NCBI GenBank assembly: GCA_011523485.1
Contig: WTGR01000291.1
Location: 1 to 5,094, forward strand
Length of the DNA stretch: 5,094 bases
Direction of reading: 5' to 3'
DNA from: Acidobacteriota bacterium
GTDB taxonomy: Bacteria; Acidobacteriota; Vicinamibacteria; Vicinamibacterales; UBA8438
The translations under genes were made by a program, and so were the position numbers. The notes below the pieces were generated by a model. The model was not told the DNA's origin. It was given only the letters and a program-made list of their open reading frames with translations, and made no database searches. Shown piece after piece: positions 1,303 through 3,447 of this stretch (positions are counted from its first letter, which is position 1; the number at the start of each line of letters is the position of its first letter).

Positions 1303-3447
1303 ATGAAGATCGCGGTCGTCTACAACCGTGACAGCAAGAGCGTCATCAACCTGTTCGGCATGCCGAATCGCGAGAAGATCGGCCTGCGGACGATCAAGCG
1401 CCTTACCGACGCCCTGAAGAAGGGCGGCCACCAGGTCATCTCGCTGGAGGCGGACAAGGACCTGGTCGACCGGCTCGAGGATTTCATGCCCCAGGTCGTC
1501 CAGGGCGAGCGGCCTGGCATGGTGTTCAACGTCTCCTACGGCCTTCAGGGGCAGGCCCGCTACACCCACGTGCCGAGCATTCTGGAGATGGTCGGCATCC
1601 CTTACGTCGGCTCCGGCCCTCTCGGCCATTCGCTGGCGCTCGACAAGGTGGTCACCAAGATGCTGCTGCGCCAGCGCGGCGTTCCCACGCCCGACTTCGC
1701 CGTACTCGACACGCCGAGCGCGGAGCTGCCGCCGGACCTCACCTACCCGATGATCGTGAAGCCGAAGAACGAAGCGGTCTCCTTCGGGCTCAAGGTGGTC
1801 GACGACGAGGAGGCTCTGCGTGAGGCGGCATCCGTCATCTTCAACGAGTTCCGCCAGCCGGTTCTCGCCGAGCAGTACATCACCGGCCGGGAGATCAACG
1901 TCGGCATCCTGGGCAACGATCCGGTGGAGGCGTTTCAGCCCGTGTTGCTCGACTTCGGTGACGGCGTGCAGATTTACACCTACGAGGACAAGACGGGCCG
2001 TAGCGGCCGGGAGATCCGCCCGGTCTGTCCCGCACCCATCGGCGAGGAACTGACGGAGAAGGCCAGGGAGATCGCCATCCAGACGTTCAAGGTGCTGGGC
2101 CTGAACGACTGCGCCAGGATCGACATGAGGCTCGACGACGCCGGGCAACTCTTCGTCCTCGAAGCCAATTCGTTGCCGAGCCTCGGCGAGCACGGCTCCT
2201 ACCTGGTGGGCGCCGACCATGCCGGCCTCGATTTCACCGGCTTCGTGAACCGGCTGGTGGACATCGCGACGGCTCGCTACTTCGGCACGCCCAGCGTCTC
2301 ACCCCTGGAAGGGAGCGCGAAGGACACCAACGGCCAGATCCTGCAGTACGTCACGCAGAACCGGGAAGGGCTGGAACGGCGACTGCGGGACTGGGTGCAG
2401 CTCTCGAGCACCACCAACGATCCCGTGGGGATCGAGCAAGCAGTTGCGAAGGCGGGCCGCATGCTCGAGGGGCTCGGCCTGAAGCAGGTGCCGGAGCTGA
2501 CCGACGGTCCCGAAGTCTGGACCTGGGCGACCTCCCGTTGGAGCGAGGGCGGCACGCTGCTGATCGCCCACCTGGACACGCCGATCGACACCGCTGTTGC
2601 CGTGCAGCCCTACCGGCGGGATCCCGAATGGGTCTATGGCGAGGGGATCGGCACCTCTCGCGCGCCGCTGGTTGTCCTGGAGTATGGGCTGCGCGCCATG
2701 CGGCGCATCCGCAGGCTCAGCCGGACCCCCCTCGCCGTGTTGCTCTACACCGACGAGGGCAGGAGCGCGCTGCACAGCACGCAGCTCATCCGGGCGGCGG
2801 CGGCAAAGGCGAAACGCGTCATTGTCCTCGGTCCGGTGAGTGAGGCCGGCGACCTCGTGACGAACCGGCGCGGCGCGCGGCGCTATCGCCTCTCCGTCGA
2901 GGGAGAGCCGCTGCGGCCGGGCCAGCGCACCAGGCGGATGCCCGTGCTGCGCTGGACCTGGGGCAAGCTCGATGAAATGACGCGGATGACGTCGTCGAAG
3001 GATCGGCTCGCCGTCGAGGTGCTGGACATAGAGCCCGAGAGACACCCGATGATGGCGCCGCACCGGGTCTCCGCCACGATCATGGTCGCCTACTTCGACG
3101 TGGACGATGCGGAGCGGGTCGAGCGGCGGATGAAGGAAATCCTGGGCAGCAGGGGGCGGCGGTGGAAGCTGACCCTGCTCTCGGATCGCCCGCCGATGAA
3201 GGAACGGGCGCAGGGATTGCGCTTGGCGAAGGCGATCGAAGACGTGTCGCGGGAGCTCCAGCTTCCCGTGGGCCATCACTCCTCGGTGTGGCCGTCGGTC
3301 GCAGGCCTCGTCCCGGCCAAAGTGGGCTGCGTGTGCGGCTTCGGCCCGGTCTGCCGCGACCGGGACACCTCCAAGGAGGCGGTGCAGCGCGTCAGTCTCG
3401 TACAACGGGCGCTCTTGCTTGCCGCCTTCCTGAGCAAGTCGCAGTAG
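1303..3447 (+). CDS. ATP-grasp (D-Ala-D-Ala ligase-like) / M20 peptidase-like fusion protein
   Basis: 714 residues, no signal peptide or membrane segment, so cytoplasmic. Residues 1-330 are a D-alanine-D-alanine ligase-type ATP-grasp unit. They contain the N-terminal fold (MKIAVVYN), IPYVGSGPLGHSLALDK (99-115), YPMIVKPKNEAVSFG (148-162), AEQYITGREINV (189-200), YTYEDK (225-230) and ARIDMRLDDAGQLFVLEANS (271-290). R272, D274, E287 and N289 match the Arg and Mg2+ ligands of Ddl, so ATP-dependent acyl-phosphate chemistry is likely intact. The acceptor pocket differs: the usual HG..GE(D) element is YGLQGQARYTHVP (79-91), and the Tyr after the YxYExK lysine is Thr231.

Residues ~345-714 follow the M20 (ArgE/DapE/carboxypeptidase G2) plan. 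A leading helix NREGLERRLRDWVQL is followed by LLIAHLDTP (419-427), LLYTDEG (480-486), EAGD (514-517), a dimerisation-like insert (HRVSATIMVAYFD, 587-599) and a C-terminal GFGP...TSKEAV (679-694). Several metal ligands are altered. TAG is at 3445-3447, and the Ntn-hydrolase gene follows after 11 bases. Genuine Ddl for cell-wall synthesis is unlikely: those proteins are ~310-370 aa and keep the standard pocket. Domain calls are firm; the substrate is unknown. Confidence 0.88.
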   Translation: MKIAVVYNRDSKSVINLFGMPNREKIGLRTIKRLTDALKKGGHQVISLEADKDLVDRLEDFMPQVVQGERPGMVFNVSYGLQGQARYTHVPSILEMVGIPYVGSGPLGHSLALDKVVTKMLLRQRGVPTPDFAVLDTPSAELPPDLTYPMIVKPKNEAVSFGLKVVDDEEALREAASVIFNEFRQPVLAEQYITGREINVGILGNDPVEAFQPVLLDFGDGVQIYTYEDKTGRSGREIRPVCPAPIGEELTEKAREIAIQTFKVLGLNDCARIDMRLDDAGQLFVLEANSLPSLGEHGSYLVGADHAGLDFTGFVNRLVDIATARYFGTPSVSPLEGSAKDTNGQILQYVTQNREGLERRLRDWVQLSSTTNDPVGIEQAVAKAGRMLEGLGLKQVPELTDGPEVWTWATSRWSEGGTLLIAHLDTPIDTAVAVQPYRRDPEWVYGEGIGTSRAPLVVLEYGLRAMRRIRRLSRTPLAVLLYTDEGRSALHSTQLIRAAAAKAKRVIVLGPVSEAGDLVTNRRGARRYRLSVEGEPLRPGQRTRRMPVLRWTWGKLDEMTRMTSSKDRLAVEVLDIEPERHPMMAPHRVSATIMVAYFDVDDAERVERRMKEILGSRGRRWKLTLLSDRPPMKERAQGLRLAKAIEDVSRELQLPVGHHSSVWPSVAGLVPAKVGCVCGFGPVCRDRDTSKEAVQRVSLVQRALLLAAFLSKSQ

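Follow-up and report, generated by a model that had tools for sequence, protein, structure and literature searches.

An Acidobacteriota bacterium (Vicinamibacterales, UBA8438; GenBank assembly GCA_011523485.1) was found to carry, within positions 1 to 5,094 of contig WTGR01000291.1 (this 5,094 nt stretch is the window), a gene that joins a ligase of the D-alanine-D-alanine ligase (Ddl) type, with an ATP-grasp fold, to a domain with the fold of the M20 peptidases (Table 1). The purine-rich sequence AAGGGAAGC precedes the start codon. A gene of the gamma-glutamyltranspeptidase (GGT) superfamily follows, its probable start lying 11 nt downstream of the stop codon of the fusion. No promoters or terminators were found by a scan of the window.

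Table 1 Features of the fusion gene and of the gene downstream in the window.
Feature	Position	Strand	Remarks
Ligase / M20-like fusion gene, 714 aa	1303..3447	+	ATG start, TAG stop
Ddl-like ATP-grasp ligase domain, residues 1-330	1303..2292	+	ATP/Mg residues intact, D-Ala pocket residues changed
M20-fold (carboxypeptidase G2-like) domain, residues 345-714	2335..3444	+	Metal centre absent
AGGAG, ribosome-binding-site-like	3446..3450	+	Overlaps stop codon of fusion gene
GGT-superfamily (Ntn-hydrolase) gene	3459..5094	+	Probable TTG start; extends past window end

An earlier note on this DNA had claimed that one polypeptide combines the ligase with a whole M20 peptidase-type domain. The fusion in one frame is real and conserved: among the best 120 of the 1936 homologues found at E≤0.001 in a database search (7997 scored candidates), 118 are at least 690 aa long, which rules out a chance or assembly fusion, and all 120 are at least 60% identical to the fusion. 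The claim of a whole M20 domain stood for the fold, which is present in residues 345-714, but not for the metal ligands, which are replaced, so that the observation overall was partly confirmed. The ligase half is the better conserved, with 115 of 330 positions conserved at 98% or more versus 38 of 384 in the M20 half. Of four shorter proteins with inspected starts, P0148 (Desulfonema ishimotonii), P0127 and P0124 start within the ligase domain and P0156 close to the beginning of the M20-like domain. These may be broken, mis-started or cut genes, and P0156 may alternatively be a free-standing form. The partial matches L063, L064 and L065 sit at contig ends.

Residues were compared across 136 members, namely the window protein, 17 of the 21 loci from a species-genome collection and 118 proteins. 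In the ligase half, the positions aligned to E. coli DdlB K97, K144, K215, R255, D257, E270 and N272 are invariant (136/136). As all seven ATP/Mg positions are retained, ATP-dependent ligase activity is expected of the N-terminal half. At the positions of DdlB S150, Y216, S281 and L282, which we take to line the D-alanine site (the roles of all DdlB residues are assumed here), the members have Val (136/136), Thr (126/136), Gly (135/136) and Ser (135/136), respectively. The motif Y-G-x-Q-G-x-x-R-Y-x-H-x-P (residues 79-91) is invariant in alignments of 36 and 24 rows, and most printed Ddl matches begin only at residue 88-90 of this region. The window protein scored 161 bits against TIGR01205, for which the cut-off is 245.65. 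No fusion exceeded this cut-off in 33 genomes (those left of 39 positive genomes after removal of the near relatives G013, G525, G527, G529, G530 and G691), and a separate ligase above it is present in 25 of the 33. The remaining eight have no other protein above the Ddl cut-off, though in G255 and G317 there is one just below. The fusion ligase thus shares with Ddl (E. coli DdlB, P. aeruginosa DdlA/B) its superfamily and the invariant ATP/Mg residues, but differs in its replaced D-Ala residues, its score and its M20-like domain, and a housekeeping role as Ddl is unlikely.

The nearest solved M20 structure to the C-terminal half is carboxypeptidase G2 (CPG2). Positions were mapped from the printed alignment with an offset of 22, which reproduces the CPG2 numbering, and the di-metal ligands are presumed to be H112, D141, E176, E200 and H385. 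H112 corresponds to H423, kept in 122 of the 136 members, and the catalytic base E175 to E485, present in all of them, as is R629 at the position of R324. The position of the bridging Asp, D141, falls at residue 451, and an acid occurs within residues 450-454 in none of the 136. The ligand E176 is replaced by G486 (Gly in 135/136), and the E200 position (residue 510) is occupied by Arg, Ser or Gly in 129/136, with one Asp and two His. The HMM alignment does not extend to H385, and residues 670-695 contain no conserved His (any His in 18/136). A wider set of 32 domains, which includes the divergent L049, has Asp425 and Arg629 throughout, His423 in 28 and Gly486 in 30.

From these replacements an M20-type di-metal site in the C-terminal domain appears very unlikely. 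Since three metal ligands are replaced nearly everywhere and the last His is not conserved, the domain is likely to be a pseudopeptidase, retained for ligand binding; the kept fold and the presence of R629 and E485 in 136/136 fit such a role. The suggestion of the earlier note that the fusion may couple synthesis with editing of a small peptide is not supported, given the same losses at D141, E176, E200 and the C-terminal His. Its alternative, use of the M20 fold to hold the product, agrees with the kept residues, and the interpretation in the note thus found partial support. Compared with CPG2, the domain has the same fold but lacks the metal centre, has K208, H229, N275 and R288 changed and is placed behind a ligase.

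The GGT-superfamily protein of the window matched PF01019 over its whole length (4.2e-118) and scored 351.1 bits against TIGR00066 (cut-off 357.85), the window copy being cut at its end. The genes next to the fusion were counted by tblastn and recounted by script, because the gene caller mis-called some frames of GGT and of a second partner, an N-formylglutamate-amidohydrolase-like protein of family PF05013 (FGase). Among 32 loci with usable downstream sequence a GGT-family gene lies beside the fusion in 29, the exceptions being L050, L082 and L083, and an FGase-family gene is present in 26, the further exceptions being L006, L009 and L072. Whether the fusion is always next to a GGT-like gene, as the earlier note had asked, is thus answered in the affirmative for most loci and in the negative for three. 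The contig of L006 ends 1.1 kb downstream of the fusion, and the locus is still counted among the 32. The count omits loci with little downstream sequence (2 bases in L005, 128 in L011 and in L074, which is the same as L011, and 542 in L071, which does show FGase), the fragments L020, L021, L078 and L079, the loci without an M20 domain (L055, L056 and L080), the window itself, and L022-L048 and L057-L070, which are short extracts from genomes mostly covered elsewhere. With 8 kb downstream and neither GGT nor FGase, L020 would count as a miss.

The partners themselves vary to some extent. In L073 both follow the fusion on the opposite strand, and the GGT of L072 is just 38% identical to that of the window. 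The nucleophilic Thr followed by His at the processing site is found in 29 of 30 GGT rows, with Ser in L084, and the Thr-Thr-His motif is kept in the window. The cassette GGT therefore shares with gamma-glutamyltranspeptidase (T03 Ntn hydrolase) a whole-length match and the Thr-His pair, but lies just below the TIGR00066 cut-off and is altered at positions that presumably bind the gamma-glutamyl group. No hydrophobic leader was seen by eye in the GGT of the window or of L012 (no signal-peptide program was run). Against the HutG model TIGR02017 (cut-off 278.75) the FGases of L014, L017 and L073 scored 64.7, 55.9 and 63.1 bits, and that of L014 meets the wider family PF05013 (3.4e-39). Two variants of the arrangement were also seen. 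At L076:7459-11166 a single frame of 1235 aa encodes the ligase, the M20-like domain and GGT, either as a true triple fusion or as the result of a lost stop codon. At L010:10875-14118 and L052:8353-12211 the cassette region holds two GGT-family genes, one window-like and one divergent.

Beyond the cassette, the neighbours include MscS/MscK-type mechanosensitive channels, MgtE, CorA (in five related Acidimicrobiia loci) and CorC/CNNM membrane proteins. In L001, the nearest locus to the window in the ligase tree, the fusion is followed in a row by GGT, FGase and MscS and then, where the contig ends, by the first part of an MgtE gene. A mechanosensitive channel (PF00924) lies within 10 kb of the ligase in 8 of the 33 genomes (0.38 expected, P 1.9e-9), MgtE in 6 (0.14 expected, P 4.2e-9), a RimB/RloA-like Zn_protease (PF05618) in 3 (0.02 expected, P 9.3e-7) and CNNM in 3 (0.25 expected, P 2.0e-3). 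The model places copies at random and treats genomes as independent, and the four families were chosen with the neighbours already in view. The enrichment of PF00924 and MgtE is strong enough to withstand this, while the P value for CNNM would fail a correction for multiple families and that for RimB would barely pass. Relatives were only partly removed, three of the 33 genomes carry the distant ligase without M20 (below), and binning errors are possible in metagenome-assembled genomes. Further small MscS genes, detected by tblastn beside the cassette in G001, G004 and G007 (L001, L006 and L010), were not counted by PF00924 at 1e-5.

Three loci (L052, L072 and L084) have RimK, a RimB-like protease and an AstE/AspA-like deacylase near the cassette, and the RimK of L052 and of L084 exceeds the curated threshold of its family. 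Several kinds of ABC-transporter gene occur in L053, L054 and L084; other neighbours vary by locus and many are unannotated. As a separate observation, the cassette at L051:10879-13019 is directly preceded by genes for a zinc-ribbon Ser/Thr kinase and for a PP2C phosphatase. Members of the same two blast clusters also occur close to the L052 cassette, and a member of the kinase cluster close to that of L054.

By record title, the carriers among the 21 loci of the species-genome collection, two of which are fragments from a single Phycisphaerales record, are Alpha- and Gammaproteobacteria, Acidobacteriota, Acidimicrobiia, Planctomycetota and one 'Nealsonbacteria'. Whole-genome searches in six groups gave a match at 1e-100 in 2/199, 8/298, 5/39, 11/193, 5/119 and 1/11 genomes; these tallies are rough, since the centre genome and at least three distant ligases are counted in them and the large searches scored no more than 3 to 5 candidates per genome. 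The fusion gene is widespread yet rare. A tree built from 24 ligase domains placed the window sequence with Alphaproteobacteria and then with a set of Acidimicrobiia and Acidobacteriota (7 rows, support 96/93), the Gammaproteobacteria standing apart. This grouping across phyla and the sparse, patchy distribution suggest horizontal transfer of the fusion gene.

Two records among these carriers deserve comment. CP070718.1 (Phycisphaerales; L020, L021 and L034-L036), a single 3.8 Mb 'chromosome', holds the fusion gene as three partial pieces that overlap in sequence yet stand far apart, a pattern suggestive of concatenation or mis-joining in the assembly. The record of L012 (G008) is named Candidatus Nealsonbacteria, and the genome is probably mis-binned; its 9.1 Mb is far above what we take to be the sizes in that group.

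Three distant ligases (L055, L056 and L080), 44-47% identical to the ligase domain of the window protein, have no M20 domain and sit with GGT, a 7TM_transglut protein and a radical SAM enzyme of the KamA family. This KamA-like 2,3-aminomutase adjoins the ligase in L055 and L080 and is fused to it in L056, where L056:10277-12487 encodes both in one 736-aa frame beside the 7TM_transglut and GGT genes. The best NCBIfam match of the 7TM_transglut protein of L080 is RloB, an osmotic stress tolerance membrane protein (61.6 bits, cut-off 900). Among the 44 loci compared, these three have both the KamA-like and the RloB-like 7TM protein, and the surroundings of the M20-fused form showed no aminomutase in any of the 44. 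The aminomutase of this branch retains CxxxCxxC. The lysine 2,3-aminomutase motif 'QCDLSLG', whose Asp presumably binds the lysine amine, reads 'QARPVKG' in L056, and Arg at the Asp position would match an acidic substrate, for example glutamate, which is offered as a lead from sequence. Beta-glutamate and N-epsilon-acetyl-beta-lysine are known compatible solutes, but according to the same review (PMC1224877) early NMR work showed that methanogens do not obtain their beta-glutamate through a glutamate aminomutase.

The nearest analogy is the NAGGN dipeptide osmolyte of Pseudomonas, whose operon is linked to osmotic physiology and pairs an ATP-dependent peptide ligase with a partner from a peptidase family (PMC8070244). 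The likeness lies in this pairing and in the osmotic link, and the families differ, the NAGGN operon consisting of an asparagine synthase (AsnO), a GNAT-type synthetase (Ngg) and a glutamyl aminopeptidase as against a Ddl-like ligase with dead M20 domain, GGT and FGase. None of the NAGGN families is among the three cassette genes (no search for asnO or ngg was made elsewhere in the genomes). The precedent named loosely in the earlier note is therefore a good lead by analogy, since the neighbourhood points to osmotic physiology, but it does not extend to the families. The Rim (RimK-RimB) and RloABC systems also combine an ATP-grasp ligase with a retropepsin-like protease; RloA cleaves polyglutamate and the rlo genes affect hypo-osmotic tolerance, as far as the available text of PMC12239564 goes, and in that text GGT, FGase and the pseudopeptidase have no counterpart. 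Three cassettes have RimK and RimB genes in their vicinity, and the distant ligase branch is accompanied by an RloB-like 7TM protein, but by family match the fused ligase is neither RimK nor RloC. The fusion loci do not have the RloABC arrangement (RloB as a 7TM protein with inactive transglutaminase, RloC as ATP-grasp ligase, RloA secreted), an RloB-like protein occurring only in the distant branch among the 44 loci compared. No description of the fusion or of the cassette was found in the open-access literature searched; the work of Iyer and Aravind on ATP-grasp amidoligase neighbourhoods reportedly may touch related loci.

Taken together, the gene content would be explained best, with a probability of roughly 0.45, by a glutamate-type peptide ligase with a ligand-binding pseudopeptidase which, with its GGT and FGase partners, serves osmotic physiology. 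The Ddl-superfamily ligase would join a substrate other than D-alanine, probably of glutamate type, into a small peptide. The dead M20 half, from the lineage of a glutamate carboxypeptidase, might act as a ligand-binding or regulatory module for the substrate or product. The GGT-superfamily amidase or transacylase (probably cytoplasmic) and the FGase-like enzyme would trim, transfer or recycle the compound. A ligase, a dead domain and amidases near turgor-related channels are suggestive of a peptide solute system, plausibly NAGGN-like, and the frequent nearness of the cassette to channels may point to a so far undescribed small molecule with which the cells meet osmotic change. Observed are the fusion, the folds, the lost residues, the cassette and the enrichment in its surroundings; the ligase activity, the glutamate-type substrate and the binding and osmotic roles are inferred. 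The glutamate theme derives from CPG2 as the nearest solved M20, from the GGT and FGase families and from the RimK, RimB and AstE/AspA trio. A more elaborate version, speculative and rather doubtful as a whole, is an undescribed osmotic-adaptation system spread horizontally across several phyla. In it the ligase would make a glutamate-type solute (possibly beta-glutamyl in the aminomutase branch), the dead carboxypeptidase would sense the peptide C-terminus so that the pool sets ligase activity, and the GGT- and FGase-like enzymes would dismantle the solute on downshift, along with the mechanosensitive and Mg channels.

Several observations weigh against an osmotic glutamate-type system. Of five CPG2 substrate residues compared, the M20-like domain has lost four (K208, H229, N275 and R288), which weakens the guess of glutamate. 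In GGT the position of E. coli Arg114 is non-Arg in 30/30 rows and that of Asp433 is Ala in 25, Thr in 3 and Glu in 2; as we take both to bind the gamma-glutamyl group, the substrate may be another acyl group. The fusions of L050, L082 and L083 have no adjoining GGT or FGase, and a glutamine amidotransferase is found instead in L082 and L083. At L082:10107-13523 the fusion is followed by the glutamine amidotransferase and by arginase-family and arginine-decarboxylase-like genes, and this content of L082/L083 would equally suit polyamine or guanidino chemistry. The families tested for enrichment were picked after the neighbourhoods had been seen, in genomes that are not independent, and within 10 kb there is no PF00924 in 25 of the 33 and no MgtE in 27, some of the contigs ending there. 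The predicted structure has a pTM of 0.60, which does not fix the arrangement of the domains. To our knowledge, there is no member with a known substrate, product or phenotype.

Other explanations account for part of the same evidence. The ligase could serve a peptide natural-product or amino-acid-conjugate pathway, its dipeptide being used in signalling, as an antibiotic or for storage and the linkage to channels being incidental. ATP-grasp ligases often serve dipeptide natural products, and the patchy distribution, the grouping across phyla and the ABC unit with an FtsX/MacB-type permease in the L084 locus would agree with such a pathway. It is nonetheless unlikely, as no common exporter was seen, although many neighbours are unannotated. 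ABC ATPases of one blast cluster occur in L053, L054, L056 and L084, but the systems checked differ, being a solute-binding-protein importer in L053, MlaD-like in L054 and of FtsX/MacB type in L084. Conservation across phyla (60-65% in most rows, 53-56% in several) is high for an enzyme of this kind, and the channel enrichment would be left without explanation. A ligase that modifies a protein or polymer in the manner of RimK, with the GGT-like, FGase-like and RimB enzymes removing residues and the pseudopeptidase recognising the target C-terminus, is quite improbable. The Rim genes near the cassettes of L052, L072 and L084 would suit it, as would the cleavage of polyglutamate by RloA and the effect of rlo on hypo-osmotic tolerance (PMC12239564), but RimB was not found in 26 of the 33 genomes at the threshold used, and the ligase resembles Ddl, of the small-molecule subfamily, and not RimK.

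Two further possibilities were rejected. In a bifunctional enzyme the M20 domain would hydrolyze the ligase product as an editing step, and retention of E485 in 136/136 and of H423 in 122/136 could be taken in its favour. An active peptidase is nevertheless very improbable, because other residues stand in place of the bridging Asp, E176 and E200 (a single member of the 136 has Asp where CPG2 has E200) and a conserved C-terminal His is missing. It is hardly credible that the fusion is the cell-wall D-alanine-D-alanine ligase with an accessory domain. Its superfamily, the name 'D-alanine-D-alanine ligase' in many source annotations and the eight genomes in which no other ligase exceeds the Ddl cut-off (including the two with one close below) would be consistent with that role, but its 161 bits fall short of the 245.65 required, its D-Ala pocket is altered in 126-136 of 136 members, and 25 of 33 genomes encode a separate ligase that does exceed the threshold.

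All the domains concerned belong to known superfamilies. A peptidase fold that is without its metal site in practically all members examined, and that stays with the same ligase and enzyme set across phyla, often close to mechanosensitive and Mg channels, allows a direct test of what a fused pseudoenzyme does, and the database entries labelled D-alanine-D-alanine ligase can be corrected. If the osmotic reading is true, the largely uncultured carriers among the Acidobacteriota, Planctomycetota, Acidimicrobiia and Proteobacteria would have a novel chemistry of compatible solutes.

Upstream of the fusion gene, the window contains an Hsp20-like frame on the opposite strand (positions 185-850), in which the alpha-crystallin domain covers profile positions 2-50 of 102 and is followed by a stop. 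As no continuation is evident in other frames, it looks truncated or decayed.

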